DNA from: Diphasiastrum complanatum
Lineage: Eukaryota; Streptophyta; Lycopodiopsida; Lycopodiales; Lycopodiaceae
DNA: 64,000 nt
Direction: 5' to 3'
Assembly: GCA_029204225.1 (NCBI GenBank)
Contig: CM055095.1
Location: forward strand, 72,948,753 to 73,012,752
Shown: positions 13,422 through 54,775 of the stretch, piece by piece
Layout of the letters: every line of letters begins with the position of its first letter
Numbering within the stretch: position 1 is the first letter of the stretch
Position numbers and translations under genes: made by a program
Notes under the pieces: model-generated
Seen by the model: only the letters and a program-made list of their open reading frames with translations
Told to the model about the DNA's origin: nothing
The model's database searches: none

Positions 13422-13552
13422 GTAGTGACCTTGAAAAAAATTATAAATACACTTTATGTAATGCTATTGAAAGTATAATTAACAAAATTATGAAACTGTA
13501 ATAAAAGTATAATTAACAAAATTATAAAACTGTAACAAAATTATAAAACACT

Positions 13553-14240
13553 AGCCCTTAGATCTTGGCCTTTAGCTGGTGGCCCTTAGCCCATAGCCCT
13601 TAGCCTTAGTACTTCACCCTTAATCCTTAGCCTTTGGCCCTTATCCCTAGGCCCTTAGCCCTTGGCTAGCACTTGGCCCTTAACCGTTAGCCCTTACTCC
13701 TCAGCCGTTAGCATTAGCACTTGGCCCTTAACCCTTAGCCCTTAGCCCTCGGCCCTTGCCCCTATGCCCTTAGCACTTGGCCCTTAACCTTTAGCTTTTA
13801 GCCCTTGGACGTTAGCCTTAGCACTTGGCCCTTAACCCTTAGCTCTTAGCCCTTAGCCCTTAGCCCTTAGCCCTTTAGCACTTGGCTCTAGGCGCTTATC
13901 CCTTCATCCGTAGCCCTTAGCTAGCCCTTGGCCCTTAGCCTTAGCCCTCGACCCTTGGCCCTTAACCTTAGCTCTTGGCCCTTAAATTTTGCCCTTAGCC
14001 TTAGTCGTTAGTCCTTAGCCATTAGTTGTTAGTCCTTGGCCGTAAGCACTTGGGCCTTAGTCGTTAGCCCTTGGTCCTTTACCCATAGCCCTTGGCCTTT
14101 CAGTCTTAGTCCTAGGACGCTTATCCTTAGTCCTTTAAAGCCCTTAGACCCTAGCATATGTCCCTTGGTCCTAGGTCCTTAGTCCTTAGCTCTTAGCTAG
14201 TGTCCCTTGGCCATTGATCCTTAGTCATTAGTCTTTTATC
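13553..14240. repeat. Degenerate 7-bp satellite (CCCTTAG)n
   Basis: About 690 bp built from variants of CCCTTAG (CCCTTGG, CCCTTAA, CACTTGG, TCCTTAG and others). Local higher-order phrases such as TTAGCACTTGGCCCTTAAC recur. The period is the same length as the plant telomere unit (CCCTAAA on this strand), but the sequence differs, so this is a telomere-like minisatellite rather than a telomere. There are no long frames. Confidence 0.95.
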
Positions 14241-26764: not shown

Positions 26765-27625
26765 TGAAGAAACAAAAGGTTTCAATTGCCAAAGCTTTGC
26801 TAGCTTTCAACCCATGAAGAGAAAATGTTCGCGAACATTTCGCGACACATGACGGAAAATCATTCACGACAAAAAAACATTTGTGCTCCACAAAGGACCA
26901 ACAAGATCAGCCAAGTACCATGAAGTACAAACATTTGATCTAATATTGTGACATCAGCAGAAGTGCTTTAGGACGTGGCTAATCCGTCACTCTTATAATT
27001 CATGATTAATGATAGATGTTTAATCTGTCTAATTAGAAAAGTTATTCGACGTGACACGAAAAAGTTCGTGAACTATATACATTTTGCTTGATGCATAAAA
27101 TAGAAAGACAAAAATATATAGATTATATGTCCGCCTGTGAGCGAGACAATTTTGCAAGAGGATCAACAGATCCAAGAAGTCCGCTAGTAAGCAAGACGTT
27201 ATTCGTGGGAAAATTGTATTTCTCTCACACCAGTGCACTATGTGAATCTGTCACATAGTGCTTGAAAAACAAGAGGATCAATAGATAATATTGTAGCTGT
27301 TATGCACATATTAATCTTATTGTTGTATGATCTCGAATAAATTTTTTTCTGCTATTGTTCATGTATCTTGTGCACTTGTTTATTCAACTTCACACACTGG
27401 TTCAATCTTGTTGAATGTTGAATTAATCTATAATGTAGATCAACAGTGTCTGTCTACATTCTGGAGGATTGTAGGAATGATATAGCCAGTAGTGACCAAA
27501 AATCATATCTGAATTCCACACGAACTGATTTTCTTCGCGAATGTTTTTCACTTCGTGTTTCACTTCACTTCACTTTGTTTCGTTTTGTTTCTCGTTGTGC
27601 TACACAACGGATCTTTGTGTAATTA
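26765..27625 (+). repeat. LTR of copia C (left copy)
   Basis: Starts TGAAGAAACAAAAG and matches 40393-40906 (right copy) from its first base. It is inserted in the 3' LTR of the gag-only element. Its 3' end is not certain: two degenerate initiator-Met primer sites of the form AATATCAGAG occur, at about 27628-27637 and 27704-27714 (the latter followed by CACG). It contains a perfect 18-bp palindrome AAATGTTCGCGAACATTT (26823-26840) near its U3 start. Confidence 0.7.
26823..26840. promoter_or_regulatory. 18-bp palindrome in the copia-C U3
   Basis: AAATGTTCGCGAACATTT is self-complementary with a TTCGCGAA core, 58 bp from the LTR start. Copia A has a different but same-core palindrome about 60 bp from its U3 start. 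The right copy (about 40451-40468) has decayed to GTTCGTGAAC. Confidence 0.7.
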
Positions 27626-27780
27626 ATATCAGAGTTTGTTTCAATTCACTTCATTTCGTTTCATTACAGAGCCTGATTAATCTTTGCAGAGAAAAAGAAA
27701 ATCAATATCAGAGCACGTTCAAGTTTCGCGAATTCTTCTCAAACATAAATTATTCTAGAACAGAATAGTTTCGCGAACGA
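27626..27780 (+). other. Copia-C primer-site region and leader
   Basis: Holds both degenerate primer-site candidates and TTCGCGAA-type phrases at 27724 and 27768. The copia gag expected next is absent. Sequence of a different character (a spliced gene) begins within about 50 bp. Confidence 0.4.
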
Positions 27781-27789
27781 TGGGGCCCT

Positions 27790-28130
27790 CTGGACGCGGA
27801 GACGAATCAGCAAGAAGTGGAGATATCCATACATTTGTCCCATGATGAAATACGAGAAATTCATATAAATAAGGAGTGCAGCCTAGAAGATCTTCAGCAT
27901 ATGCTTGGATTGACTTTTGTTGATGTGCCAATAGATTTTGTCTTCACTCGTAATGGACAAAATGTGAGTCTCTAATTTCCATCAGATTCCTGAATTTTAA
28001 ATAGTAATGTTGAATAAATATAGGATTATTAATTCTGTGTCTGGTTTTGCAGATACGGAGACGAGCCGAAAAAGATCAGAAATGTGTTTCATTTTTACAA
28101 ACAGGGACATTAGGAGTCCAATGGGAATAA
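27790..28130 (+). CDS. Small two-exon gene of unknown function (3' part)
   Basis: I do not recognise this protein. An open frame (EVEISIHLSHDEIREIHINK and onward) runs to 27963 and meets a consensus donor GTGAGT. An 89-bp intron ends in TTTTGCAG at 28052, and exon 2 (28053-28130) continues in phase (IRRRAEKDQKCVSF, ending GVQWE-stop). The splice signals and phase are the main support. The start is uncertain and may lie in an upstream exon. It is the first of a group that includes the H3-like gene 450 bp downstream on the same strand and two minus-strand genes further right. A role in the same mobile or chromatin-linked unit is inference. Confidence 0.5.
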
Positions 28131-28579
28131 AGGATTTAATCTAATGAAAAATAGAAAACACAATTAGTTGGTTGTGTTTTGACCCTATTCTATTATATTC
28201 GGTTATGTTTTAACTTTACTTTTGCGTTGTCACATTTTATATGCCTATTACTACATTTCTAGATGTCCAAGGTTGAAACTTACTACGGTTTAAATCATTT
28301 AGTGATATGCATTTTAATACTATTACTGGTTTTCTTCGAAGGTTTCCACTAACCGGCAATTAGGATTTTTACTCATGAGCCTAGACAAGAACATACTATA
28401 TTTGGAAGAGAGGCCAAAATTGTTATAGGAGCACTTACTAAAAATAGAACCCTTCACTACATAAGGGTGCTTGGGTCCTCATTTCTCCACTTCATCCCTT
28501 GAGTGTCAGAGTGTTAGTTTTTTTAGATTCTCTGTTTTTCATCTCTCGTGTTCTCTGATACGTTTTCAAAGGCTAACCA
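28131..28579 (+). other. Spacer upstream of the H3-like gene
   Basis: 449 bp without a frame, plausibly holding the 3' end of the preceding gene and the promoter of the H3-like gene. No clear TATA box or histone-type octamer is evident. Confidence 0.4.
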
Positions 28580-28654
28580 ATGTCGGAGGAAATGGCAGGG
28601 ACAAAACAAACGGCTAGAGATCCCAGAGTGACTGCATTGCTCCATAGGGATGCA

Positions 28655-29302
28655 TGTGAAAAAATACAGATCCTAAGTGGATCTAAACTCCAAGATCATT
28701 GGCTTGAATGCTTGCACTCCAAACTACATAAGCTAGGAATTGGCAACACATTCTATGCTACCTAGAATGCAAAGAACTTGATCAAAAAGCATTTATCACA
28801 AATGGAAACTTCCATAAACATCAAGTGCGGCCCAAAATAGCATTATACAGTCCATAATACATCAGCCTATCACTTTTGGAAAGCACCTAAGATCATACAC
28901 ACAAAGCTTGAACTCAATCACTACACAATGCCAACAATGGAAGGAGAACCCAATAGAAAAATCTCTCATTAAGCAAATGAATACAATGGATCTGCTCCAA
29001 CCTGTTTCTCCACGGCCTACCTGCTATATATAGCTGAGAGAGATGACTCTCTCTCCTCTCTCTAGACCCTCCTTACCTAAAATATGCCCTATATAGGTAA
29101 AATTGGCATATATGTCCAAAATACATGAAAATGGACTCATTTCGAAGGTCTTGAAGTTTGACACTTCTTCATACTGAAAAAATACACTTACTAAAAATAT
29201 CTAGACCTGTTTCACACGTGTGAAAAGTCAGATCCTAAACTATGTGCCATTTTTAGCAATTTTGGCCTAAAACTAGACAAGGAAATGTTGACAATTTTCA
29301 CA
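28655..29302 (-). repeat. 3' LTR of the TR-GAG element
   Basis: 648 bp, TGTGAAAAAATACAG to AATTTTCACA on the plus strand. It carries a TATATATA box (29025-29032) and the 14-bp palindrome TTCACACGTGTGAA (29211-29224). Confidence 0.95.
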
Positions 29303-29315
29303 CTCCCTCTTCAAC
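29303..29315 (-). promoter_or_regulatory. Polypurine tract
   Basis: On the minus strand GTTGAAGAGGGAG lies directly before the 3' LTR. It would prime plus-strand synthesis. The identical GTTGAAGAGGGAG precedes the copia-E LTR at 59032. Confidence 0.9.
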
Positions 29316-30053
29316 TTAACTTGCTAGTTTTACAACACTACTTTGTTCCAACTTAAGAATGATCTCCATCATCAGAATAGATCTCTTCTCAAGGATCCTA
29401 ATATGTACAAAATAGGACACAACATAATTGATATAGATAATAGTGTCCATATAGGATGCTTCACTATTTCTTACATCAATTTTACATAGAATCATAAAAA
29501 TGGTACATGTAAAAGAACATAGAATCTCAATTAATGAATTCCTCCATGTATCCATCTCTGGTTTCTCTGTAAAATAGCAGCAAACAAGTTGTAAATGAAA
29601 GTGATCAACAAGTGTTTGCATGCCTCCTCCACATTTCACTATACATATAGTGAATGCAACATGTATCTCCATGAATGAACTTCCATCACCACCTTGCCTT
29701 TGTAGATCTTCAATCCATGAAAGCCTTTGAGTGAATGAATGCCAAAAAGATGTGTTCCCTACTCCATTTGAATGACCAAAACCTGAACTTGAAATACTTG
29801 AAGTACCTCCACAAGATTTGCACACAACGCTTGATCCTACAATGTCAACAAGTTGCCAATTTGCCAACACTAGAATACTAGATCTTGAACTTTGTTCAAA
29901 AGAAAACATATTGACCACTTCAATACCTTTCAAGATCTGAATGAATTCATGTACTTGATCATACAAACCAGCAATGATAACTATTCCATCTCCAAGATCC
30001 AAAGGATGCAAAACTATGGAACTAGTTTTATTGAAATTTGACAATTTCAACAC
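29316..30053 (-). CDS. Accessory ORF 2 (module X, second half)
   Basis: 245 codons opening from a GTG overlapping the end of ORF 1 by 7 bp in another frame. I do not recognise a domain. The residues are Ser/Cys/Ile-rich. A block from SFMEIHVAF through LCKIDVRNSEASYMDTIIYI to EKRSILMMEIILKLEQSS is clearly homologous to the plus-strand frame at 57824-58477 inside copia E (CKIDVRNSEAYQVDTILYIN, ERRSIL, MDQSS). In copia E the sequence matching the ORF1/ORF2 boundary is in one frame, so the overlap here is probably a one-base frameshift in what was a single long protein. Function is unknown. Confidence 0.6.
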   Translation of the reverse strand: MLKLSNFNKTSSIVLHPLDLGDGIVIIAGLYDQVHEFIQILKGIEVVNMFSFEQSSRSSILVLANWQLVDIVGSSVVCKSCGGTSSISSSGFGHSNGVGNTSFWHSFTQRLSWIEDLQRQGGDGSSFMEIHVAFTICIVKCGGGMQTLVDHFHLQLVCCYFTEKPEMDTWRNSLIEILCSFTCTIFMILCKIDVRNSEASYMDTIIYINYVVSYFVHIRILEKRSILMMEIILKLEQSSVVKLAS

Positions 30054-32407
30054 ATTGACATAAAATGTTCATACATGAGATTAGGCAAGTGAGGTAGAGT
30101 AAGAAGACACTTCCTTGCAGCTCCAAAGACCTTACTTGAACCTTCAAGAACCTGTAAAAACAGATCCAAAATGCCTTGACCATTTGTCTCTTCTTTGATG
30201 CTTTTCACTAGCTTCGAATTGCCACTTGTCTCTTGGTGTTGATGAAGCAATCCAAGATCAACCTCTTGATCTTCCAATAAGACATCAAAGATCTTGCATA
30301 TGTGAACATCTTCAGATCTGAAACTCTGAAGATACTCCCTCTCAAACACATGATTAAGATCCCACAAGATCTCATCAATGCTCAAATTTGACCCTTCACT
30401 ATAGTTAGTGAAAACAATGCCACCATCATAAACCAAAAGATAGATTCCAACATTTCCATTTAACATGAAGTAGAGTAGGTGAAGATGAGTATCAAACCTA
30501 ATCAAAACAGCCCTCTTGAGTTCATAACAAACCTCAATAAGCTCACCAATGATATCTCCCTTGCCTTGAAGAAGTTGCCACTTGAGTTGCTCCATGTAGT
30601 CTTCTTCAACCAACCTTTTGCCATCTTGACCATGAATGAACAATCCACCACAATCATAGAATGCTTTGAGTTGATGAAGAGATGTTAGATCCATGCTTTG
30701 GATCTTCCCAAGAACCACTCTTCCATTGCCCTTTCCTTCACAAGACTCCCTCTTAATGCTAGCACCACAAAAGTTAGAAACCTCCCTCTTGATAGTTGCA
30801 CCATAAGAAGTAGAAGACTCTTGAATATTAGAAGCCAAGAAAAGAATCCTTAGTACCTTCAACATAAGAGTGATTGAAGTACTCTCTCTTTTCAAACATG
30901 AACTTCTACTCAATGATTTAGGTAATGAGTCATATGATAATGATTCTTCCTCACTATCGTTCATAAAAACATCATTCAAAGTACATCCTACTTTGAACAC
31001 TTCACATACTTCTCTTCCTTTTGACTTGTGATCTCCCTCACCAAGTCTCATGATAGAAACCTTTGATCTACTCTTTTTATGAAGAAATGTGACACCACTT
31101 GTTGCACAAATGACTTTATCACAAAAAGATGTAAAAGAACCATTTCCTTCAAGCATGCTCAAAGCACCATCATCTTTTCCCACATGATTACATACATCAA
31201 TATGAAAAGAATTAGAAGAACAACCATCTTCTTGCAAAGAATGACACTTAGCATCTCCATCTTTTTCCATATGAACAAACAAGTCATTAGCAACAATCAC
31301 TTCCAAAGAAGAATCTTCATCAACTCCATTGATGAAGTTAGCTCCTTCCTTACCTTTTCCATTTTTGCACTTGCCATCTAGCACCATTGAAGAACCAACA
31401 AGCCTTGGAAGTCCATGAGTAGAAGAGTACAAACATGATGCTAATTTAGCTCCACATGACTCCATATGACTAGTAGGTAACACTAGTGCATCTTCAAGAT
31501 CCAATGGATCCAAAAAATTGACCATAGATTCACCAAAGCTTGCCAAGTTAGCACAACAATTATCATCTCCAAGAAGTACATTAGATCTCAACCTAGATCT
31601 AGCATTTTGTTTCTTATGGCATTCATTTGCAAAATGTCCTTTTATCCCACAATAAAAGCACTTGAACTTTGACTTATTGTTCTTAGTAGAAGAGGAAGAG
31701 GAAGAGTGATCATCATGATCAAAGTTACCACCTTTGGACCATTTCCCTTTGCCTTTACCTTTGCCCTTGAATTTGCCTTTTGTGAAGAAAGCCTCTTCAC
31801 CTCCACCTTGCAAGGATGCACCATCAAGCTTTGATTGCAACCTATGTTCTTCAGCCAATAAGATTTCTTGCAAGTCAACCACACTTGGCAAGACTCTTTG
31901 AATGGCAAAACTTTGCACAAGGTTAGCATGTTCATTTAGCAAACCATTCAACATAACTTGGACTATTTCACCATCTTTTATGTTCTCATCAATGCATGCT
32001 AAATCATCACTTAGGGACTTAACTCTCAAGATAAATGCATGAGCACTTTCACCCTCTCTTTGCCTACTAGAAAATATTTGTCTCCTTAGGGTCAATACCC
32101 TAGATGTGGACTTTGATTCAAAGAGCTTCTTTAAGGCATTCCATGCCTCACTTGCACTTTGACACTTTCCAACTTCCTTGAGAAGTTCATTTGTAACATT
32201 CATTTTAATGATATGAAGAGCCCTTTTGGCCTTCTTATCAAACCTTTGTTGCTCTTGAAGTGTGAGAGGTCTCTCTTCAATTTCTGCAACTATGTCCATG
32301 AGTTCATTCAACTCAAGTAAGGACTCCATCCTCACTTTCCAAGTAGAGTAGTTTGATGAACTCAACCTTTCACTAGACTCTAGCATGATCCCACCATTGG
32401 AAGCCAT
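30047..32407 (-). CDS. gag: Gag with long accessory extension (module X, first half)
   Basis: 786 codons from the ATG at 32407 (MASNGGIMLESSERLSSSNY). Residues 1 to about 215 are copia gag (WKVRMESLLELNELMDIV, MNVTNELLKEVG, VQVMLNGLLNEHANLVQSFA). A Gly/Lys-rich stretch (KGKGKGKGKW) and one CCHC knuckle, CFYCGIKGHFANEC, near residue 255 follow. The remaining 500 residues have no known domain and contain no DSG protease box, integrase or RT motif. They contain DLEDALVLPTSHMESCGAKL, matched in copia E by DLEDGLVQTTWFMESCGAGF, and LVKSIKEETNGQGILDLFLQ, matched there by LVKSIKGEVIGKSVMDLFLQ. A typical copia gag ends soon after the knuckle, so the extension is exceptional. Confidence 0.88.
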   Translation of the reverse strand: MASNGGIMLESSERLSSSNYSTWKVRMESLLELNELMDIVAEIEERPLTLQEQQRFDKKAKRALHIIKMNVTNELLKEVGKCQSASEAWNALKKLFESKSTSRVLTLRRQIFSSRQREGESAHAFILRVKSLSDDLACIDENIKDGEIVQVMLNGLLNEHANLVQSFAIQRVLPSVVDLQEILLAEEHRLQSKLDGASLQGGGEEAFFTKGKFKGKGKGKGKWSKGGNFDHDDHSSSSSSTKNNKSKFKCFYCGIKGHFANECHKKQNARSRLRSNVLLGDDNCCANLASFGESMVNFLDPLDLEDALVLPTSHMESCGAKLASCLYSSTHGLPRLVGSSMVLDGKCKNGKGKEGANFINGVDEDSSLEVIVANDLFVHMEKDGDAKCHSLQEDGCSSNSFHIDVCNHVGKDDGALSMLEGNGSFTSFCDKVICATSGVTFLHKKSRSKVSIMRLGEGDHKSKGREVCEVFKVGCTLNDVFMNDSEEESLSYDSLPKSLSRSSCLKRESTSITLMLKVLRILFLASNIQESSTSYGATIKREVSNFCGASIKRESCEGKGNGRVVLGKIQSMDLTSLHQLKAFYDCGGLFIHGQDGKRLVEEDYMEQLKWQLLQGKGDIIGELIEVCYELKRAVLIRFDTHLHLLYFMLNGNVGIYLLVYDGGIVFTNYSEGSNLSIDEILWDLNHVFEREYLQSFRSEDVHICKIFDVLLEDQEVDLGLLHQHQETSGNSKLVKSIKEETNGQGILDLFLQVLEGSSKVFGAARKCLLTLPHLPNLMYEHFMSMC

Positions 32408-33567
32408 GATTCTAATGTTTCTTCAACTTTTAGGTTCTGTCCTAAAGCACTTAGCACTCACTTTTCTCTCAACAAATGATAGATAAAGAGATCTATGAAG
32501 ATTTAGGACCCTAAAACACTTCTATCTTGAACCTAGATGGTTTCCAAGCATAGAAAGGAAGATTGAAACACATGCAACACTTTGCACACACTAAGAATGG
32601 ATTACAAAATCAAACCAACCTGAACACACTCTTGCTTAAGCTCTCAAACTTTCCAGCAAGTGACCAAATCAAGTTATGGTGTGAAGAGTTACTTGCATTC
32701 TTAGAAAATACCCAAAACTAGGATGCCAAGATTACCTAGTAATGAACAAACTTGATCAACATATGATCAACACACTAAGATATTGATTCAACCTATAAAA
32801 CCACATGTAAACCACACTTCTAAAAGTTTATAAACTCCAGCAAGTGATAAATACAAGATTTAGAGGTGAATGAATGAGCACACTTAGTGAATCACAAGAC
32901 TAGCTTCACTATCTTGTCAAATCTTGGTGTTTAGATGTAGATCTAAGATCACTTCACATGAGAATGTTCCTCAACCTGTTAAGAACCTGAAAACACACTT
33001 GCATAATGGTTAACACCTTCCAGCAAATGCTCCAATCAAATTACATAAGGAGAGTTACTTACATGCTCAACAAAGTACACCAAAATTTATGCCAAAATTG
33101 ATGACAATCTTTACAATATGCTCTTCACAATGGAGCTTACAATATGTTCACCCAAAAAAGGGGATCTTTCATCCAAATGGGAGCTTTGCTCAGCCTTTAG
33201 GAGAATTACAACTCACTCAAAAGAGCATTTGTCATCCACTTAAGGAGAAGTTTCATCCACTTAAGGAGAGTGTTCATCCAAGAATGGAGATTGTCAACAA
33301 TAGGATTGAAAAGAACATTGTTAGTATTGAATATGCACAAGCCTCACAATCACAAATGATTAGGTGTTATGATCTGATCCAAAATAGTTTCTTTTCAGCC
33401 TCTGATCTTCAATAGACCTGAAATATGCTTTTGATCCACAAGTTCAACTCACAAAACAAAGGTTAGTAAGATTTGATCAACAAAGCAATGCAAAATCATG
33501 CTAGAACTTGATCAAACATCCAAATATCACCAAAAATGGAATACTTACTGTAAATAGAAGCCAACCA
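32408..33567 (-). other. Leader of the TR-GAG element
   Basis: Long untranslated leader between primer site and gag with no minus-strand frame. Around 33.15-33.29 kb there is a short run of related CATCCACTTAAGGAGAAGTT-like phrases. It probably holds packaging and dimerisation signals (inference). Confidence 0.6.
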
Positions 33568-33579
33568 GCTCTGATACCA
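33568..33579 (-). promoter_or_regulatory. Primer binding site (tRNA-iMet type)
   Basis: TGGTATCAGAGC on the minus strand, directly adjoining the 5' LTR. Confidence 0.95.
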
Positions 33580-34227
33580 TGTGAAAAATTACAGATCCTA
33601 AGTGGATCTAAACTCCAAGATCATTGGCTTGAATGCTTGCACTCCAAACTACATAAGCTAGGAATTGGCAACACATTCTATGCTACCTAGAATGCAAAGA
33701 ACTTGATCAAAAAGCATTTATCACAAATGGAAACTTCCATAAACATCAAGTGCGGCCCAAAATAGCATTATACAGTCCATAATACATCAGCCTATCACTT
33801 TTGGAAAGCACCTAAGATCATACACACAAAGCTTGAACTCAATCACTACACAATGCCAACAATGGAAGGAGAACCCAATAGAAAAATCTCTCATTAAGCA
33901 AATGAATACAATGGATCTGCTCCAACCTGTTTCTCCACGGCCTACCTGCTATATATAGCTGAGAGAGATGACTCTCTCTCCTCTCTCTAGACCCTCCTTA
34001 CCTAAAATATGCCCTATATAGGTAAAATTGGCATATATGTCCAAAATACATGAAAATGGACTCATTTCGAAGGTCTTGAAGTTTGACACTTCTTCATACT
34101 GAAAAAATACACTTACTAAAAATATCTAGACCTGTTTCACACGTGTGAAAAGTCAGATCCTAAACTATGTGCCATTTTTAGCAATTTTGGCCTAAAACTA
34201 GACAAGGAAATGTTGACAATTTTCACA
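33580..34227 (-). repeat. 5' LTR of the TR-GAG element
   Basis: 648 bp, differing from 28655-29302 at one position by eye (the tenth base from the left edge). TATATATA box at 33950-33957 and TTCACACGTGTGAA at 34136-34149. Confidence 0.95.
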
Positions 34228-35102
34228 ATGCACTAGCCATCCTCGATGAGAGAGAGAGATGGGAGAGTAGAAGCAAGAGTAGGAGTCGCAGCCCAATAGC
34301 ATCTCAGGAATATCCGGCCACTCAGCGTGAAGCTGAAGAGGACATGGCCCATACAGCAGCTGCACAGGAGGACCAGACTGAGTAGTAGCAGCAAGAAGAC
34401 CAGCAGCAGCAGGAGGACCAGCAGCAGCAGCAGCCACCACGACAAAAAAGCCCTTTCCCGATGGCAACTGAGTGGGAGGAAACAATGAAGTTCCTAAATG
34501 AGGAGCTTGTGGCATCGGGTGAGTTGTCGGTTCTGAATGATTCTTTCTTTGATCCATTTCCACCATCAATGGGCATGGACATAGCAAATTTAGGCAAATC
34601 GGGGGACACCACACCCACCGTGTCACCTCCAAGTCACGGCTTGGTGATGGGTCCGATGATGTCGTTGCTGGTGGGTGGTTCTGATGAGGGCACCCCGATG
34701 TCGCACACAACAAGTATGAAGCAGAAGGCGACCCATAGATGGTCAGAGAGAGGAGCACACGAGCGAAAGAGAAAGAATCCTCGCAAGGCAGGCTCTACAT
34801 CAAAGCGATGGAACCCTGCAGCTCAGCAGCCATCACCACTGCCCACACCGCCAACATCGCCTCCACCGCCTCCACCGCCTCCACCTCCACCTCGACCACC
34901 TCCACTACCACCACCTCCACCACCACCTCCACCACCACCACTTCCACCACCTCCAAGTTCTGCAGCAGCTGGCCCAAGTAGGACCGTAGAGCGTGGTAGG
35001 GGTAGGTCGGCCCCTCGTGCAGCACCATGGGCTGGAAAGGAGCTCCGCAAGATGTAGCCACCACCTCCTTGACCTCGTAGGAAGTGCATGATCGCAAAGT
35101 AG

Positions 35103-35366
35103 CTCCAGGATATACGGAGCTATCAGAAGTCCGTAGAATTTCTTATCCCTAGGGTCCCTTTTGTGAGGCTTGTAAAAAAAATAGTCGATGAATTTTTCTT
35201 GGGGAACAGAGTTACGGCAGATGCTGTGTCCGCAATACAAGAGTCTGTGGAAATGTACCTAACGCAGCTTTTTGAGGACTCATTTTTGTGTGCAGTGCAC
35301 GGGAAGAGAGTCACAATATTCCCAAAGAATCTCCACCTAGCTAGAAGGCTAAGGAGAGAGCGCAAT
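35103..35366 (+). other. Histone-fold core of H3 type
   Basis: Eighty-eight codons align without gaps to H3 from the alpha-N helix to the end. Landmarks are IRSYQKSVEFLI for IRRYQKSTELLI, PFVRLV for PFQRLV, AIQESVEMYL for ALQEASEAYL, LFEDSFLCAVHGKRVTIFPK for [20 protein letters not shown], and LARRLRRER for LARRIRGER. About half the residues are identical by eye. Loop 1 is not lengthened, which argues against a centromeric CENH3. The segment itself has no stop, unlike the linker before it. Confidence 0.85.
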
Positions 35367-35468
35367 TTAAAATATCATGTACATGATTTTATTTATAATA
35401 TACTGAAGATTTGGTGTCAAGTATCTTGCAGAAATTCAGGTTATGTGAATGCAAATTGTTGTGATTGA

Positions 35469-35619
35469 GTTTAATATCTGATTTTAGTACTGTTTATGTG
35501 AATGTAGTCATTTGAAAATTTTAGTACCATCTATGTGAATGCAGTGATTTAAAATATTTAGTACTATGAGAATGGTAGTTTCTTTAACCATGTTGTAGCT
35601 AAGATAGGTTTCCATGCCA
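35469..35619. other. 3' region of the H3-like gene
   Basis: AT-rich, with a repeated TTTAGTACTRTNTATGTGAATG phrase (about 35.48 and 35.52 kb). No frame. Confidence 0.4.
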
Positions 35620-35778
35620 TGGCATGAAAATCATGCCAGGGCGCAACCAGGGGCCATTTGACCAGGTCAAAAGTCCCCTGGTCGCACCTTGGCATGATCT
35701 TCATGCCAGGGTGTGACCAGGGCCCGTTTGACTAGGTCAAACGGCCCCTGGTCGCGCCCTGACTTGATTTTCATGCCA
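35620..35778. repeat. Nested GC-rich inverted repeats between convergent genes
   Basis: The outer arms of about 43 bp (35626-35668 and 35734-35776) are near-perfect reverse complements. The central part (about 35666-35734) is itself an imperfect palindrome. All arms share CATGCCAGGG...GACCAGG...TTTGACC blocks. The whole 155-bp unit could fold into a cruciform or double hairpin. It separates the plus-strand H3-like gene from a convergent minus-strand gene. Confidence 0.85.
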
Positions 35779-35908
35779 CAGAAAAAAGAAAAGAAATCTT
35801 TATCAGAGAAAAAAAAAATTTAAATTCTAAATTCAATGAATAAGCACATCATATAATTACAATAGAAAATTAGGAGAGTCCTCAAGAAAAAAACGACAAA
35901 ATTTTTAT

Positions 35909-37370
35909 TCACATTTGATCCATTTTTTTCATAGAGGACTTCAGCTTCTCTGATGACAGTACTGGTTTTAACATTTCTAATGTTAATTTAGAAGCATCAC
36001 TCTCATCCTCATAAGGGCCAATTAAACTCGAGAGAATGAGCCGGGTCTTGAATCCAAGGCAAAAATCATTCAAAACGGCTTTTCAGAGGACACAATAAGC
36101 CTTTGGCGCTGACGGTGACAACTCCACCTCACCAATGTGCTTGGAGAGTGCTTTGCATTTAAGAAGCTCCGTTGGTTTATCTGGGTTGTACTTGTTGCTG
36201 AAGCAGAAAATAAAGTTGTTGGGCAAGTTTCCAATGTAGTGGGCCATAGACCTGTCCAGAGTTCATGCTTCAACTTTCTCCCGAGTGCCACCCATTCGCA
36301 TTGCAAATGCATCAAGCTCCACTGCATCCTGCATTTGGTTCAAATTATTGCAAAATGAGTATAACAAAGACAAACAAACATAAAAAAAAAATACACAAGT
36401 TGAATTGTTGGGTCAGACTTGTCTCGGTCCCTTCATCAATGTCTTCGGTTTGCGCAAGGTCAATTCCTTTGCCTTTGTACTTCACGTCAGCAGTTTTTCC
36501 TTCGAGTACTTCAAATGGCCTCATTTGAACTGGTGGTGTTTGAAGCATTTTCAATTGGCAAAGCACTCTTGCCAGTGCTTGCTTGGTGGTGTCCGTGTCA
36601 TGCCCGATCAGCTTCTCATACGTGTCGTCGGGCTGGGTGTGGTCGAAAGTGGAACTGCCATTCTGCAAATTTACCAATGCTGCCAGCATCTCATCTTCTC
36701 GCAAGCCGATAATATGTTGCAAGTCATGCATGAACACATACTTCTGTCCGTCAATGATGATTGGAGCAAGGCCACGGATTCGAAGCACGACATCATCAGA
36801 CTCATCTATATCTTCTAGCTCCGTTGATGTGGATGCACCTGTTGCCTCTTGCGCAGTCAAGACTGCTTTGTGCTCCGCAAATAAATCTTCCTCTTCACCC
36901 GGGTCGTGCATCTCGTTCACCTGCTCACTAGGATTGTGTTTGTTGTTGGCCACAGTCGCTAGAAACTCATTAAGCGAAAAAATAACAGTAATCTCACCGG
37001 AAAGAAACTTTTTTCCTACACTTTCAAGATCAAAAGTTTTCAGCTGATCCTTGGTCAGCTCCAAGTAATGATCGTTACCCAAGTGACTAATAAATCTGTT
37101 GAGATGAGCGATAAAGGGTCTATCTCCTTTCCATATATAACTAAGCAAGTTATATGGAATCCACATGATAGTTGAGCCAGAAATTTGTATGGCATAAGGC
37201 TTCAAAGTGTCATCTATATACTCACTCACATACGTGAATACATCCGTATTAGCTCGTAGAGTGGCAAGCGTGCCTATTCTACCAGTAAACATTAAATAAA
37301 TACGATCTAACTGATCTAAAAACTGTGTGGGGGCTAGCTGATTGGCCAACTCTATTTTAGAGGATGACAT
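35909..37370 (-). pseudogene. Unassigned two-exon gene, lightly decayed
   Basis: I do not recognise this protein. Exon 1 starts at 37370 (MSSSKIELANQLAPTQFLDQ) and is open for over 310 codons. Its first ~140 residues look globular. An acidic region (DPGEEEDLFAEHK, ELEDIDESDDVVL) and a second block (IIIDGQKYVFMHDLQHIIGL) follow. A donor near 36.41 kb and an acceptor at AAATGCAG (about 36334) join exon 2, which continues in phase (DAVELDAFAMRMGGTREKVE) to a stop at 35909. Two TGA codons in exon 2 are each one C-to-T step from CGA (Arg), the same decay type as in the H3-like gene. It converges with that gene and lies just downstream of the transposase-like gene on the same strand. Confidence 0.5.
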
Positions 37371-37639
37371 TGTTATTCAACTAAGAACACTAGTTGACCA
37401 ACAAACTAGTAGTCTAATTGAACAAGACAAGCTAAATTACGAGGAAAGAGATTTCAACAGAGCAAGAAGTGACAACAAAATGAAAACCCCCACTCTTATA
37501 TAGAGGGACGTGTTTTAAAAAATAGATATTATTATAAAACAAAATAAAACAATTTCTATTTATAGCAACAATCCAATTCGCCAGTAATATTTATCACAAA
37601 GGAATATTCGAATTACAATTCAACATAAATTGTTTCTAT
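37371..37639. other. Spacer between two minus-strand genes
   Basis: 270 bp of AT-rich DNA. It would hold the promoter of the 37370 gene and the 3' end of the transposase-like gene. Confidence 0.4.
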
Positions 37640-39190
37640 TCCATCTCATCAGTTTCCGTAGCTTCTCTAGCGCTGTTTTCCAAAACATTGGATGTTGGTG
37701 TCCTTGGCATCCATCTCTTTCCAACTCGGACTCTAGACATCCTCCATTCTTGATGCCTTGTTCTAGCATTAGAGGACTGCCATGCTGTCTTTCTGACTGA
37801 ATTTGAATTGGAGATAATTGAACTCAACTCTTCAGTTCTTGTGTTTTGAAAGTGTCCTCGACCGAAAACTCCTCTGTAAAACCATTGGAATATCTCAACC
37901 AATGCATTGCTAAGACCCTTTCCTCCGCCATGCCGTGAATTTTTGAAATATGCAGCCTTTGCCCTGTAATGACTCTTTTCCATGCCTTGCATATTCCAAA
38001 TAGCTAATGATCCGTAGGTTTTCATAAACCAAGGTCCATGAGCATAGAAGATGGGCTGTTCATAGAAAATTTGTATTAGTTTAAATCTTTACAAATACAT
38101 AAATACGAAAGTAAAAAATATGAGACACACATACCATATAGTGAGTTATGTGTGTTTCTCCCCATGCATCGATCATCAATTCAGTAAATGTTTTGACTTC
38201 TCTTGCGTATCTATCCAAATCTTCATCTCTCACAATCTTTTTGTTGATAGTTTGTGACAAGGCATCAAATGCTTGCCAAACCTTAGCACGTGTACTTGCC
38301 ATGCGAGGATCTGAGCCAATATTTGTTGTGCATTGACATATTTTCTTCCAGTGCTCCCATTCAACACTGCTTTCACGTGCAGTATGATTTGACAATAGGT
38401 GTCTCGCTTTCGCACCACCCATTGAAACTTTTGTTGGAACATCTTGCGTTTTTCCACTCATCTCAACGTCTTTGGTAAGACTCACATGGCCCCCATGCAA
38501 TCCCATATCGGATAAAATTATCTCTAGATTTCTAATGCTAACATATGCTCTTGATTTGGGCTGCATGTTCCATGCGTAACAACAATGCAAAAATAATAAT
38601 TTGTCCAATATTCGCAATTCACCATGCATTGTGCAAAAAAGGACTCTTCCAAGAGGAATGTTCAACACAGGACTCCAAGCTTTGTCTAGATTGTGCCTAT
38701 TTGGTGCAAGACGTTGGTTGCAATTCAAAATACTTTTGTTCCGCCCAGATTCAAACATACAATATATACAAAAATTCTTTGCATTTGCACCGAGACCACA
38801 ACCGTACATGCATTTCAAAGTCTTCAAATCAGTAGCTAGGTGCCATTCTACAGCAAAGCTTTCTCCTTCAACATTGAGCAATTTGCCTTCGTGAGACTCC
38901 TTAGGCCCCTTCAAATATAGCTATCCACCATATGTGATTTTTGGATTGCACGCTAAATTCTTTACAATAACTTCCGCCAAACTGTTGCAATTCACGATTC
39001 ATCAAGGTGATTATGACACGTTCAAGTTTATGCCCTTTTACGATTTCTACTTCGTCCAACTTAATAACAAATATAACTTTACCTCCGCAATTTGTAAAAC
39101 AGAAATTTCATTACGAAAACATATTAGTTGAAGAAAAGCATACAATTGAAAACCAAAATCCACAATAAATGTTCTTACCATTTGTTCTAA
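37636..39190 (-). pseudogene. Transposase-like gene with an intron
   Basis: The main exon (38135-38914, with in-phase sequence upstream to about 39.0 kb) contains ATDLKTLKCMYGCGLGANAK followed by FCIYC. It ends HITHYM at a perfect donor GTATGT; a 79-bp intron (38056-38134) ends in GAACAG; exon 2 (to 37639) continues in phase with PIFYAHGPWFMKTYGSLAIW, then NMQGMEKSHYRAK and GLSNALVEIFQWF. This order (K-L-Y/M-x-x-G, C-x-Y-C, HY-x-H, N-Q-G-x-E, then an Arg/Lys/Gly-rich stretch) resembles the C-terminal half of large RNase-H-fold transposase-like proteins known from animals and protists. Active-site acids cannot be assigned. A TAG just upstream of LYLKGPKE (probably from CAG) breaks the frame, so the copy is partial. 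Confidence 0.45.
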
Positions 39191-39251
39191 CTTTGTAATG
39201 TCGGATCATCATCGCTTGGATCTTTTCCAGATCTAAGAATATATTATTGCC

Positions 39252-40370
39252 TTGATGATAATGAAAACATGTCAGAGGTCCTTTCTTCTTATTAGTTATT
39301 GTAAAAGAATCCTCAATATGCTGAAAGCCTTGAAATCCTTAGGATTCAAGCCACTAATAGCTGATTCCAATGTTTATGTAAAAATTACAGATGGAAAGAT
39401 CATCATTGTAGCTATATATGTGGATGACACTCTGATACTCTACAAGAGTGAGGAGCTTATTGATGAGGTGAAGTATGATATCTCAAAACATTTCGAGATT
39501 GCAGACCTGGGAGAAGCTAGATGTTATCTTGGCTTACAGATTGACAGGGACTATGAGGGAGGTAAATTGTACCTTCATCAGTCCAGATATACCCATAAGA
39601 TCTTAGAAGATTTCGGGATGCTAAATTGCAAAGGAGCGAATACTCCAATGCTTGCAGGAACAGTCTTGACGAATGAAGATTGTCCAAAGACTGAAGAAGA
39701 AAGAGAATTGATGCAATAGACACCATACAGAAAGCTGATTGGATCTCTGATGTATCTTGCAGATAACACATGTCTTGGCATTGCTTATGTCGTGTTCAGG
39801 ATGAGACAATTCTGTACGACTCATTGGAAGATTGCAAAACGAATTTTGCAATATCTTCAATTAACGAAAGATTTTGGATTGTGTTATTCTCGTGCTGCAG
39901 GGTTCCAAATGCTTTCCTACAGTGATGCTAGCTGGTCATCTCTCAAGGATGACTACAAAAGTGTCTCATGAGGATGCACCATTGTGTCAAGAGCAGCAAT
40001 TCTCTTGGTCAGCAAGAAGCAGACCATTGTGGCTCAGTCATCCTACGAAGCAGATTACGTAGCAGCAGCAAAGATGGCCAGTAAAATCATTTGGCTCAAA
40101 CAGTTCCTTGATGAACTGGGCAAAACAAGAAATGAATCTCTAGTTTTGCAGATGGACAACACATCTGCAATACATCTAACAAAAGACCCTGTGTTTCACT
40201 CAAGGATGAAACACATTGCAATCAAGTACCACTTGATAAGGTATCTGATCGGGAAGAAGATGTTGCAGACTACTTTTATTGGAATAAAGGAGATGGCTGC
40301 TGACATTTTCACAAAGGTCTTAGACAAAGGTCTGTTCGAGAAATAGAGGAGCAGTCTTGGAGTCATCTAG
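39252..40370 (+). pseudogene. pol: Ty1/copia-C RT (C-terminal) and RNase H
   Basis: The frame begins inside RT shortly before the catalytic box (ALKSLGFKPLIADSNVYVKI), with YVDD at 39417-39428. It continues LGEARCYLGLQIDRDYEGGK, then a TAG at 39717 and GSLMYLADNTCLGIAYVV, RNase H (SYSDASWSSLKDDYKSVS, a TGA, then QSSYEADYVAAAKMASKI) and the terminal HLIRYLIGKK...AADIFTKVLDKGLF. The purine tract TTGAGAGAGAGC and the 3' LTR follow. It shares an orientation and LTR family with 26765, so the two may be the ends of one element whose middle is now occupied by the 27.8-39.2 kb gene group. Confidence 0.92.
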
Positions 40371-40392
40371 CTATCATGCTTTGAGAGAGAGC

Positions 40393-40906
40393 TGAAGAAA
40401 CAAAAGCTTTCAATTGCCAAAGCTTTGCTAGCTTTCAACCCACGAAGAGAAAATGTTCGTGAACATTTTGTGACACACGACACGAAATTATTCACGATAG
40501 AAAATCATTCATGCTCCACAAAGGACCAACAAGATCAACCAAGTACCATGAAGTACAAATATTTGATCTGATATTGTGACATCAGCAGAAGTGCTTTAGG
40601 ATGTGGCTAATCTGCCACTCTTGTAATCCATGATTAGTTACAGATGTTTAATCTGTCTAATTAGAAAAGTTACTCGACGCGACACGAAAAAGCTAGCAAA
40701 CTATATACATTCTGCTTGATGCATAAAACAGAAAGATGCAAATATATAGATTACATGTCCGTCTGTGAGCGAGACAATTTTGCAAGAGGATCAGTAGATC
40801 CAAGAAGTTTGCTAGTAAGCGAGACATTATTCGTGGGAGAATTGTATTTCTCTCACGCCAATGCACTGTGTGGATCTGTCACACAGTCTTGAAAAACAAG
40901 AGGATC
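40393..40906 (+). repeat. 3' LTR of copia C, truncated
   Basis: Starts TGAAGAAACAAAAGC and tracks 26765-27280 with scattered changes up to AAGAGGATCAA, where the repeat-D sequence takes over. Confidence 0.88.
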
Positions 40907-41746
40907 AAAGCATCTAGGCTAATCTAGCACCCCCTTGCTAGCCAATAACTAACCACAAGCATACCACCACACGATAGCATACTCAAGATCCAAACCCTAC
41001 TTATGTCCCATACCATAAGCAAGATTCAAACCCTAAGCATACTATACACAAGAAAACACTCTATATTCTAGTGGCCACACTAGAGCATAAGCATAGCAAA
41101 CAAGAGAGATCTCTCTCCCTGCCTATGGGTGCCCTATGGCACCCTCCAATGCACTATGGAATTCCATGCACAACCAATGGGAAAGAGAGAGGCCTAGGGG
41201 AGTTAAAGAACCTTCATAGGCTTATGGAAGGTCAAGAGACTTTTTCCATAACCTATGACTCTTTGAATGTCTTTCTTGTGGGAGTTGGGAACTCGATGGA
41301 CACCTTGGGAGGGCACCCTCCTACTAGGTCCCATTGCCCAAGTTGTGCTTGTATACTTTGGTCCAAGACTAATAAATGGATACGGTTCAAGGTTGAGGCC
41401 CAAGGTTTAGAAAAGTAGCCATTACACCCATGGTAATGATTTGCTAGCACCTCACTAGGTTCCATACCTCCGACCAAGGCATAGATACCTACCTGCCGTT
41501 AACCAAGGACACTAGTAGCTTAATCTAAAGGCACATATTCTTAATCCTAAGGGTACCTTTTATCCAAGGATAACTAGATTCCATACCTTCGACCAAGGTA
41601 TAGTCACTTGCCTGCCCTTATTCAAAGGCACCTATCCTTAATCCTAAGGGTATCCCTTATTCGAGGGTAACTTGCCATTTAGCTCCCAACACTAAATGGA
41701 CATATAGGGATCCCTGAAGTACTGCTAGTTACATAGGTATGTAACA
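40907..41746 (-). repeat. Repeat D (LTR-like), minus orientation
   Basis: On the minus strand it starts TGTTACATACCTATGTAAC at 41746 and runs about 840 bp. It aligns with the plus-oriented copy split across 42905-43019 and 48314-49030. It contains several GGATTAAGGNTA...CCTTTGNATAAGG blocks in tandem. LTR identity is inferred from the TG start and its use as the boundary of element internal sequence. No primer site was found. Confidence 0.65.
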
Positions 41747-48313: not shown

Positions 48314-49030
48314 TATGTGCCTTTGGATAAGGACATGCAAGTGACTATACCTTGGTCAGAGGTATGGAGTCACGTGACTCTTGGATAAGAGATACCCTTA
48401 AGATTAAGGGTAGTTATCTTAGATTAAGGTACTAATGTCCTTGGTTAAGGACAGGTAGGTGTCTATGCCTTGGATGGAGGTATGGAACCTAGAGAGGTGT
48501 TAGAAAGTCATTCGATGACTATTTTTCTAAACCTTGGGCCTCAACCTTGAACCGTATCACTTTAATGATCTAGGACCAAAGTATACATGCACATCTTGGG
48601 CATTGGGACCTAGTAGGAGGACGCACTTCCAATGGGTCCAACGAGTTTCCAACTCCCACAAGAAAGACATTCAAAGAGTCATAGGTTATGGAAGGAGTCT
48701 CTTGACATTCCATAAGCCTATGGAGGTTCTTTAACTCCCCTAGGCTCTCTCTCTCTCATTGGATGGGCATGGAACTCCATGGAGGGGTCCATGGGCCATC
48801 TATATGAGGTAGTAGGGCGCCCATTGGAGGGAACATAGATCTCTCTTGCTTATGCTCTAGTGTTGCTAGTGTGTAGAGTACTTTCTTGTGTGTAGTATGC
48901 TTAGGATTTGGATCTTGCTTATGGTATGAGACATAAGTAGGGTTTGGATCTTGAGTATGATATAGTCTTTTGTGGTATGCTTGTGGTTTGTTTATGGTTA
49001 GCAAGGGGGTGCTAGATAGGTCTTGCTTGG
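48314..49030 (+). repeat. Repeat D (plus orientation), right part
   Basis: Continuation of 42905-43019 after copia G. It aligns to the minus copy at 40907 down to AGCAAGGGGGTGCTAGAT. The segment from 48507 onward recurs at 53284 in the direct duplication. Confidence 0.8.
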
Positions 49031-49489
49031 AGTCTGGATCTAGCTATGGTTGGGTGGTGAATATTTGAGGCCAGCTTGTTATCTATTTTTGTGTTTAAGA
49101 GTAGGGACACATGTGGAAGAGAGATCCTTGGAAGCTTGCAGATCCTTACTTGCAGGTGGAGACATCCTAGCTTGGAGTTGGGGAGCATCTTGGAGCTTGC
49201 AGGTTGCTTGGAAGACATTTGGAGGCTCTACCTTGGATTTGGCGGACTTCCTCACCTCTACTTGTAAAATTGAGTGTGATAAATGTGAAGGCTTTCTGAT
49301 CTTTAATCTTCCATGCCTTTGCTTGATCACCATCTTCTGGTTTCTGGTCAGAACCTTCTACTACATCCCAAAGATCTCTATCTATCAACATCATCTGGAG
49401 TTTTAACTTCCAGATATAGAAGCTAGAACCATTGAACTTGTCAATGATTCTAGTCTCGTTAGATAATGAACATGATGAGTTACCAATAT
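49031..49489 (+). other. Non-coding stretch between repeat D and gypsy integrase tail
   Basis: No supported frame. It contains several CTTGGAGCTTGCAGGT-like phrases. Present again at 53816-54285 with few changes. Confidence 0.5.
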
Positions 49490-49975
49490 GAGACAGGACA
49501 AGGCACTATGTTGATCTATCTCGAAAGCACAAGGTCTTCATGGTCAACGACTGGGTGTTTTTGAGAGTCCCTAGTCACTCTAGAGGCTTGAAAACTATTA
49601 AGTGTGCAAAGTTGGCATCTAGGTATTGCAGTACTTTTAAGGTTATCAAAGTGATAAACAAGATCGCATACAAATTGACCTTCCAGCAAACATTAGAATT
49701 CATCCCATTTTTCACGTTAGTAAGTTGAAACCCTCATTGGGGGTTGGGGAGACCCTGGTCTCTGTGGAAGATCTAGTGGAACTTCTTCGTGATAAGTCCG
49801 TGAGTGGGCCACCTGAACCCTAGGCGATTGTTAATAATCGGTAGAGAACTCTACGGAGTAGAGTGCTTTGAGAATTTTTAGTCAGGTGGAGGGGAAAATT
49901 AGAAGAGGAGGATACTTGGAAAAAGAAGGCTGATCTCCAAAAAACACAATGACATTTGTTTTGGGACTTTGACTT
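49490..49975 (+). pseudogene. pol: Ty3/gypsy integrase C-terminus with chromodomain trace, copy 1
   Basis: Reads HKVFMVNDWVFLRVPSHSRG, then YCSTFKVIKVINKIAYKLTF (the GPY/F module), then HVSKLKPSLG-like sequence in a shifted frame and ELLRDKSVSGPPEP. After stops it ends FLVRWRGKLEEEDTWKKKAD, which looks like the C-terminal part of a chromodomain, a histone-mark-reading module found at the end of some gypsy integrases. Gag, RT and RNase H are absent. Confidence 0.75.
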
Positions 49976-49994
49976 GAAAAAGAGTAATCTTTTT

Positions 49995-50660
49995 TGATGT
50001 AACCATCATAATTACAAATAAAATAATAATTCAAGAGAACAAATGATTTTTGAAACTCGAAATCCCATTGAAATACAAAATAATTTAAATTATATTTGTA
50101 CATTTTCTTTAAGTACATTTTCTAAGAAATTCTCACTGATGCCTCTCAATTCAGAACTTGATATATTCTTAGCACTCTTGTTTTCAGTTGATGAAGTGGA
50201 AGACCCGTCTTCTTCATCAGAGTCGACTAGCATGTCTTCCTCAGAATTCGCATCAAATGTTGACAAAAGACCTTATGAATCAGCTTTTGTCTGTTGATGA
50301 CGAGTGGAGGATGATGGTTTTTCAAGTAATTCAAGTCGTTCTTTCAATATAGATATTGTTGACTTTTGTAGATGATTGGTCATTGTTAATTCAAAATTAA
50401 ATGCCAAGACATCTACATCCTATAGATTCAGATCATCGACTCTTGGTTGATTTGTTGGCAATCTCTTTCTCTTGCCCTTTGGATCTACTTGCAACATTTT
50501 GAGTTCGTACCTTCCCAAAAAAGCATTCGTTGAAGTGGTGCGCAACCAATGGACACACAGTACTTTTGTTTTATTGTTATTTTGAATAAAACCAAGTATT
50601 GAATCAACATGAGCTGAAAGCACTATGTGCTCAAGAGACAGGCCTGTCTTTTAATTCGAA
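49995..50660 (-). pseudogene. Acidic-tailed unknown gene, copy 1 (decayed)
   Basis: Homologous to the better preserved frame at 55025-55580. Here the frame is broken: 50420-50623 is open, and the acidic C-terminus is readable near 50.15-50.25 kb in another frame. It is divergent from the methyltransferase-like gene. Function unknown. Confidence 0.55.
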
Positions 50661-53283: not shown

Positions 53284-54285
53284 AAGAGTCATTGGATGAC
53301 TATTTTTCTAAACCTTGGATCTCAACCTTGAACCATATCACTTTAATGGTCTAGGACCAACATATATATGCACAACTTGGGCTTTGGGACCTAGTAGTAG
53401 GGCACACTTCCAATGGGTCCAACGAGTTTCCAACTCCCACAAGAAAGACATTCAAAGAGTCATAGGTTATGGAAGGAGTCTCTTGACTTTCCATAAGCCT
53501 ATGGAGGTTCTTTAACTCCCCTAGGCTTCCGTCTCTCTCATTGGATGGGCATGGAACTCCATGGAGGGGTCCATGGGCCATCTATATGAGGGTAGTAGGG
53601 CGCCCATTGGAGGGAGGAGAGATCTCTCTTGCTTGCTTTGCTTATGCTCTAGTATTGCTAGTGTGTAGAGTACTTTCTTGTGTGTAGTATGCTTAGGATT
53701 TGGATCTTGCTTATGGTATGGGACATAAGTAGGGTTTGGTTCTTGAGTATGCTATAGTCTGTTGTAGTATGCTTGTGATTTGTTCATGGTTAGCAAGGGG
53801 GTGCTAGATAGGTCTTGCTTGGAGCTTGGATCTAGCTATGGTTGGGTGGTGAATACTTGAGGCCAGCTTGTTATCTATCTCTGTGTTTAAGAGTAGGGAC
53901 ACATGTAGAGGAGAGATCCTTGGAGGCTTGCAGATCCTTACTTGTAGGTGGCAACATCTTAGCTTGGAGTTGGGGAGCATCTTGGAGCTTGCAGGTTATT
54001 TCGAAGACATTTGGCGGCTCTACCTTGGATTTGGAGGACTTCCTCACCTCTACTTGTAAAATTGAGTGTGATAAATGCTAAGGCTTTCTGATCTTTGATC
54101 TTCCATGCCTTTGCTTGATCACCATCTTCTGGTTTCAGGTCAGAACCTTCTACTACATCCCAAAGATCTCTATCTATCAACGTCATCTGGAGTTTTAACT
54201 TCCAGATGCAGAAGTTAGAACCATTGAACTTGTCAATGATTCTAGCCTCGTTGGATAATGAAGATGATGAGTTACCAATATGAGA
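53284..54285 (+). repeat. Repeat D (3' part) and spacer, copy 2
   Basis: Direct duplicate of about 48507-49489, starting abruptly at GTCATTGGATGACTATTTTT inside repeat D. The first half of repeat D is missing, so the left duplication breakpoint lies here. Confidence 0.85.
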
Positions 54286-54775
54286 CAGGGCAAGGCACTA
54301 TATTGATCTATCTCGAAAGCACAAGGTATTCATGGTCAACGACTGCATGTTTTTGAGAGTCCCTAGTCACTCTCGGGGCTTGAAAACTATTAAGTTGGCG
54401 TCTAGGTATTGCGGTACTTTTAAGGTTATCGAAGTGATAAACAAGGTTGCATACAAATAGACCTTCCAACTAACATTAGAATTCATCATATTTTTCATGT
54501 TAGTAAGTTGAAACCCTCGTTGGGGGTTGGGGAGATCCTTATCCCTGTGGAAGATCTAGTGGAACTTCTTCGCGATAAGTCCGTGAGTGCACCACCTGAA
54601 CCCGAGGGGATTGTTAATAATCGATAGAGGACTCTATGGAGTAGATTGCTTTGATAATTTTTAGTCAGGTGGAGAGGGAAATCAGAAGAGGAGGATACCT
54701 GAGAAAAGGAGGCTGATTTCCAGAAAACACGATGACATTTGTTTTGGGACTTTGACCTCAAAAAGAGTAATATTT
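54286..54775 (+). pseudogene. pol: Ty3/gypsy integrase C-terminus, copy 2
   Basis: Same segment as 49490-49975 with further stops (for example TAG at about 54458 where copy 1 has AAG-TTG). FLVRWREEEE-type chromodomain trace near 54.66 kb. It lies in the same position relative to the methyltransferase-like copy 2. Confidence 0.75.

Follow-up and report, generated by a model that had tools for sequence, protein, structure and literature searches.

How do the first residues of histone H3 and the H3 fold come to lie kilobases apart in a lycophyte genome, and has a gene of this kind any role? The question arises from a 64,000-nucleotide stretch of Diphasiastrum complanatum DNA (GCA_029204225.1, contig CM055095.1, positions 72,948,753 to 73,012,752; hereafter the window). 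A first-pass annotation made from the letters alone had proposed a giant H3-like gene here, with the start of the H3 tail and the H3 core held apart by a linker of ~300 residues. We found that this gene, rather than being a host H3 variant, is cargo of a high-copy DNA transposon with terminal inverted repeats (TIRs), and that the copy in the window is dead. Judging from its relatives elsewhere in the genome, the H3-like gene is almost certainly a transposon gene that has been under selection.

The core in the window (35103-35366) matched the Pfam profile Histone (PF00125) with an E value of 3e-26, and aligned without gaps to H3 in the Protein Data Bank (PDB) over 87 residues (E 3e-25). Identity to H3.1 was 48/87. 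The H3 tip, at 28592-28618, reads M-A-G-T-K-Q-T-A-R-D-P and, unlike the commonest tip of its relatives, lacks R2; an in-frame ATG is present at 28580, four codons 5' of the tip start (28592). The tip sits 6.5 kb 5' of the core because a copia-type long terminal repeat (LTR) element has inserted in the gene. When the empty site was joined, the tip, the RS, Gln, basic and poly-Pro blocks and the core all fell in one frame, just as the first-pass annotation had read them. The joined frame is nevertheless not open, being closed by five stops before the core (34383, 34386, 35055, 35070 and 35100). Over 437 codons, frame 0 contained 6 stops, the last of which terminates the frame, compared with 23 and 27 in the other forward frames and 10, 8 and 15 in the reverse frames. 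Taking into account this low count and the genomic relatives that are open across the same stretch, we regard the window frame as a decayed real frame; with five in-frame stops remaining before the core, this copy is dead.

We searched the genome (1.745 Gb) with the window core. At least 150 places were scored, of 5442 candidates, with E <= 1.7e-50 in every listed row; the window itself apart, they were 76-92% identical, many in frames of 300-450 codons. These 150 places include partial and near-duplicate ones. Besides the window, 46 loci were retrieved, and as the first 20 were picked partly for long open frames, open copies are over-represented. Near-duplicate pairs are L016/L017, L018/L019 and L031/L032, and L012 and L014 have common flanks. 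Of 40 loci examined in the family to which the window copy belongs (family A), five (L009, L011, L015 and the near-duplicates L016 and L017) had no stop between the start and the usual end of the gene, and in L011 the frame continued past that end. The open relatives have 361-420 residues from the tip to the end of the core. The linker is retained, since 40 of 47 aligned copies (rows that include the window and the reference) covered 87-100% of the L009 frame at an identity of at least 85%, the remaining 7 being truncated or more diverged. A processed H3 pseudogene that landed in frame by chance, which the first-pass annotation had named as a possible undoing of its own reading, is ruled out by the start, linker and core common to copies genome-wide.

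The tip MARTKQTARDP was the commonest in family A, found in 16 of the 36 copies that were gapless here among the 47 rows. As in the first-pass annotation, K9 has been replaced while the tip is kept: residue 9 was D in 35 of the 36, G in one and K in none. Counted automatically, the poly-Pro stretch had between 0 and 54 residues. The majority core of family A was identical to H3.1 at 50/87 positions, and retained H113, K115-R116-V117-T118, Q93-E94 and E105-D106 (H3 numbering). On the other hand, the K9-A47 part of the tail could not be recognised beside the core, where 2951 of 5000 and 2034 of 5000 shuffles scored as well; the idea of an H3 tail remainder at this position was thus unsupported.

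Genomic copies lose their homology to the window at 27778 on one side (13 loci shown) and at 39326 on the other (10 loci shown), and themselves extend further. Complete elements of 8.5-8.9 kb with TIRs were present at L012 (duplicate L014), L013 and L018 (duplicate L019). Inverted repeats CATTAGGGCCCTTTTTGGACTCAAAAAGGGCC delimit them and contain a hairpin. No target site duplication (TSD) was visible at three independent complete-copy sites; the TSD of Transib elements is 5 bp. In the complete elements, gene A is encoded on the same strand as the H3-like gene, and genes C and D on the opposite strand. We compared 150 places of the gene D main exon with 321 H3-like places. At least 80 of the 150 listed places had a listed H3-like place within 8 kb, a share that is a lower bound, compared with 0.44 expected by chance, and 78 of the 80 pairs were in the same convergent order.

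Genes A, C and D gave no confident Pfam match (best E values 0.034 for A, from two query pieces, 0.21 for C and 0.12 for D). The product of gene D, with 842 residues, is transposase-like, displaying CxxC followed by HxxxxH and E. With its C-terminal stretch (from L013) as query, all 14 PDB matches at E <= 10 were RAG1 (E 0.33-1.5), and the alignment places GME on GNE of RAG1; a longer query gave 11 PDB matches, 8 to RAG1 and 3 to Ndc10. With all 842 residues as query, the Pfam matches at E <= 5 included no hAT model. A single-sequence structure model of the transposase exon was too poor for use. Gene D possibly encodes a RAG1/Transib-like (CMC) transposase, which we take as a lead and not as proof.

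A genome search with canonical H3 identified 13 host H3 loci that lack introns and are 97-99% identical to Arabidopsis H3.1, along with more divergent H3-like places. L058, L060 and L062 represent a second family, B. The search with L058 gave 138 rows merging to 121 loci, of which 70 were at an identity of at least 61% and the rest mostly family A copies at 44-59%. The two best family B copies begin MARTKQTARRNPRET, and the tip matches A1-R8 of H3 in two of the five copies read. Residue 9 was R in all five, and each has an in-frame stop two codons 5' of the tip, indicating that the H3 tip is the N-terminus in this family. L063 is open throughout, with a frame of 421 codons. Four family B genes (C1367, C13, C16 and C3917) adjoin a transposase of 76-77% identity in convergent order. 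A third form, C, is represented by L065 and is nearer to A than to B. The VMGPMMSLLVG motif (varied in L063), an LRRMQPP block and the core are common to A, B and C; the tip and the RS block are common to A and B, and the acidic-aromatic block is well shared by A and C and partial in B. The predicted protein of family B, strongly diverged as it is, keeps the tip-linker-core plan.

We then compared the families for signs of selection, using pairwise values from single copies. Between L009 (A) and L065 (C; two stops, sequence read from the acidic-aromatic block onward), the core had a dS of 1.18 and a dN/dS ratio (omega) of 0.11. In the linker, omega was 0.18 for the acidic-aromatic block, 0.04 for GDTTPT..LLVG, 0.14 for the basic block and 0.35 after the poly-Pro stretch. 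These low values point to purifying selection on the core and on the linker blocks. Between A and B, silent sites were mostly saturated (proportion of silent differences, pS, 0.64-1.04), with replacement differences (pN) of 0.15-0.21 in the tip and core and 0.19-0.24 in GDTTPT..LLVG; the acidic-aromatic, Gln and basic blocks were poorly conserved (pN 0.42-0.51). Taking together the low linker omega between A and C and the mixed pN between A and B, the linker is constrained as well, though unevenly, and the first-pass proposal that only the tail tip and the fold had been under constraint has to be given up.

Within family A, we examined a tree of 34 copies, which dropped 13 of the 47 rows (7 truncated or diverged and 6 members of close pairs), and a larger tree, which dropped 7 (truncated or diverged); in both, the neutral expectation was drawn from the spectrum of the terminal branches themselves. 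In the 34-copy tree, terminal-branch omega was 0.98 over all blocks and 0.72-1.40 by block, which is what dead copies should show. On the deep branches, nonsynonymous and synonymous changes (N:S) numbered 13:15 in the core (omega 0.42; Fisher p 0.040) and 6:10 in the acidic-aromatic block (0.28; p 0.007), while the middle block gave 1.01 (p 0.69).

Several points weigh against a selected transposon gene for an H3-like chromatin factor. The p values are uncorrected, for blocks picked by eye before counting. The deep branches carry 7 stop gains per 56 silent changes (0.125, with a neutral expectation of 0.147), so that some of them are already dead lineages, and when all internal branches of the larger tree were taken, the signal was weaker (omega 0.67 in the core, 0.83 in the linker and 0.62 in the tail). 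Deep changes in the tip were too few to test (3N:1S). Identity of the core to H3 is no more than ~55%, with R63, K79 and A114 changed; its single-sequence structure model was poor (mean pLDDT 65.7), and a fold search gave no histone. The in-frame ATG upstream in family A could bury the H3 tip. In family B, three of the five copies read differ from MARTKQTAR at one to three tip residues, and a 901-base piece taken 3' of one family B gene gave no match to gene C.

Concerning the origin of the gene, we compared the cores with H3, including that of yeast, and with the centromeric variant CENH3. The A and B cores were identical to H3 at 48-50 of 87-88 positions and to CENH3s at 41-47 of 88; the family C core gave 46 for H3 and 36-43 for CENH3s. 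Loop 1 has the length of canonical H3, one or two residues below that of CENH3s, which bears out the initial view that this loop is not CENH3-like. Five core residues match at least two of three CENH3s (P63, A65, T85, A86 and S107) and five match H3 only (F78, V89, P121, R131 and E133). In an H3-family tree, which the first-pass annotation had suggested building, A, B and C clustered with a support of 100 and stood apart from canonical H3 at 94; their order relative to CENH3 received 36, and long branches may be involved. An Arabidopsis CENH3 query did not single out a host CENH3 gene; canonical H3 ranked highest, followed by places of families A and B and by 83 further H3-like places that were not among the matches listed in the other searches. 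The latter (for example C7:53718919-53719236) were at 40-56% to Arabidopsis CENH3, in frames of up to 527 codons, and only one was near listed transposases. Two short H3-like genes, L055 and L056, start MARTKQIARPKS and MDRKKQTRRDFF and have CENH3-like or intermediate cores.

The sequence, the element, its copy number and the conservation between families are established, and from these we infer a mechanism. A tip that retains K4, the loss of K9 and of the tail beyond it, a preserved fold with its loop-2 residues and conserved linker motifs suggest a protein that marks the element against silencing or steers the transposase. The histone fold would pair with H4 and enter nucleosomes at the element. 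With a tip that keeps K4, and with K9 and a recognisable K14-K36 tail gone, such nucleosomes could not carry the K9 silencing mark and would escape it, and the linker (RS, acidic-aromatic, VMGPMMSLLVG, basic) would recruit activators or the transposase. That the transposon encodes an anti-silencing or chromatin-steering H3-like factor of this kind is a tentative proposal, to which we give somewhat less than an even chance. A wider proposition is that one lineage of plant DNA transposons has for a long time had an H3 variant of its own, without K9 and with a regulatory linker built in. Its nucleosomes, with the K4 tip but beyond silencing through K9, would mark the chromatin of the element, and a parasite would thereby make an anti-silencing histone, which might act together with a RAG1-like transposase. 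We hold this proposition to be unlikely.

Other explanations draw on the same data. The protein might be a transposition cofactor, with the fold and the basic/RS linker holding the transposase on nucleosomes or selecting the chromatin for insertion, through K4-methyl readers or CENH3-type chromatin, with no anti-silencing role. That the gene is paired convergently with a transposase in both A and B would fit this, as would the RAG1-like stretch of gene D (E 0.33-1.5) and the CENH3-like residues of the core; RAG2, moreover, reads H3K4me3. No such cofactor is named among the literature matches listed, and we consider the possibility rather doubtful, if worth keeping in sight. A free ARTKQTAR tip could also act as a decoy outside nucleosomes, drawing readers or writers of K4, or H3 chaperones, away from H3. 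The commonest family A tip (16/36) and two of five family B tips do equal A1-R8 of H3 while the K9-A47 tail is unrecognisable, but a decoy would not need the histone fold, which is among the best conserved parts, and we judge this improbable.

If instead an H3 gene was captured once and has since been copied with the element as an inert passenger, drifting without function, one would understand why most copies read are decayed and why stop gains fall on deep branches too; the Pseudocercospora copies of H3, all inactivated except the original (PMC6710886), and the drift that the Pyrenophora authors propose in the portion of their account consulted (PMC3538342) would be parallels. This explanation is disfavoured, and has in our view very little chance, because omega between A and C is low on the core and linker against 0.98 on terminal branches, and because the tip and core are conserved between A and B despite saturated silent sites. 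A host H3-variant gene that merely lies in repeats has similarity to H3 in its favour and nothing further. With at least 150 scored places, complete elements bounded by TIRs and 13 separate canonical H3 loci, it is extremely improbable, and the TIR-bounded copies rule it out. As for a viral origin, one scan of viral contigs gave 9 pattern matches, of which 0 were confirmed.

The features of the window are collected in Table 1.

Table 1. Positions in the window of the transposon fragment, the parts of its H3-like gene and the associated retroelements.
Feature	Position	Strand	Remarks
H3-like gene, 5' part	28580..28654	+	MSEE-MAGTKQTARDPRVTALLHRDA; H3-tip start 28592
Linker	34233..35102	+	RS-rich, acidic/Gln, FLNEELVASGELSVLNDSFFDPF acidic-aromatic block, VMGPMMSLLVG motif, basic block, poly-Pro; five in-frame stops
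H3 histone-fold core	35103..35366	+	LQDIRSYQKS...LARRLRRERN; PF00125 E 3e-26, PDB H3 E 3e-25
Family A TIR DNA transposon, internal fragment with H3-like gene and nested copia	27778..39326		Both true ends absent
Transposon gene A, 3' end, two exon pieces and intron	27814..28130	+	By eye; frame continues that of gene A in L013 and L018
Transposon gene C	36060..37376	-	Main frame 36345-37376; smaller exon below, by eye
Transposon gene D, transposase-like, 3' exons	37639..38920	-	RAG1-like HxxxxH...E stretch
Nested copia-type LTR element	28655..34227	-	LTRs 28655-29302 and 33580-34227; gag-like frame 30050-32422 on minus strand
Outer copia, 5' repeat and leader	26765..27777	+	Direct repeat 26765-27281 / 40393-40908, 90% identical
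Outer copia, pol (RT/RNase H) end and 3' repeat	39327..40908	+	Pol end assigned by eye

The nested copia insertion is young; its LTRs of 648 bp differ by 1 mismatch, and it is flanked by the TSD ATGCA (28650-28654 and 34228-34232). Its gag-like frame, of 791 residues, matched Retrotran_gag_2 in Pfam (E 7e-23). There was no pol match to Pfam in the two frames scanned, and the element may therefore depend on another for its movement. A larger outer copia, with its leader on one side and its pol end on the other, encloses the whole transposon fragment, suggesting either capture of the fragment or a meeting of two truncated copies. Elsewhere in the window, a piece of a bacterial-type N6/N4 DNA methylase is present at 52015-52593 on the plus strand (PF01555, E 1.6e-10; RsrI methylase in the PDB, E 5e-5). 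It lies just beyond a segment (48506-52010) that recurs as a direct duplicate at 53287-56928. Degenerate short tandem repeats of the CCCTTAGC type occupy 13552-14236.

The transposon-borne H3 genes in the literature found are fungal and, in the parts of those accounts consulted, are seen as captured, inactivated or drifting copies. Here the host is a plant, and the tip of H3, its fold and motifs of the linker have been retained in diverged transposon families. Should the protein enter chromatin, it would be a histone supplied by a parasite and immune to K9 methylation, a direct escape from a main silencing mark of plant transposons. The gene also makes it possible to ask, on a well-defined object, what role the first eight H3 residues have once severed from the remaining tail.

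The first-pass annotation knew of no described plant H3 variant with this plan. Indeed, no plant case of a transposon-borne H3-like gene was among the literature matches listed, and the word "histone" is absent from the main text, as far as consulted, of a 2026 review on how plant transposons capture genes (PMC13317346). The closest precedent is found in fungi, where the H3-like proteins of hAT transposons carry insertions in the tail. In Pyrenophora tritici-repentis, a hAT transposon encodes H3L, an H3-like protein with insertions in its N-terminal tail, which resembles the present gene in lying between TIRs beside a transposase and an unknown open reading frame, in its many copies and in being neither canonical H3 nor CENH3 (PMC3538342). 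It differs in its fungal host, its hAT transposase and its 26 nearly identical copies, and neither a linker of ~300 residues nor selected, diverged families are mentioned in the portion of the H3L account consulted (PMC3538342). In Pseudocercospora fijiensis and five further fungal genomes, H3 has been captured by hAT elements; according to the part of this source consulted, transposon-borne H3 copies likewise number in the hundreds, but they are copies of the housekeeping H3, inactivated by RIP except for the original (PMC6710886). VANC of Arabidopsis VANDAL, an anti-silencing factor of a DNA transposon, is comparable by analogy of function only (PMC10398659, PMC13317346); it is not a histone, and we claim no homology to the present gene.

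With plant CENH3, the gene shares a divergent core and the five residues listed above as common to at least two of three CENH3 sequences, whereas its loop 1 is one or two residues shorter, and F78, V89, P121, R131 and E133 are as in H3. Canonical plant H3 has in common with it the ARTKQTAR tip, the ungapped core and the length of loop 1. In contrast to canonical H3, with ~135 residues and a conserved K9-K36 tail, the present gene spans 361-420 residues from tip to core end, has a linker of ~300 residues, lacks K9 and any recognisable K9-A47 tail, retains ~55% core identity, and is borne by a transposon.

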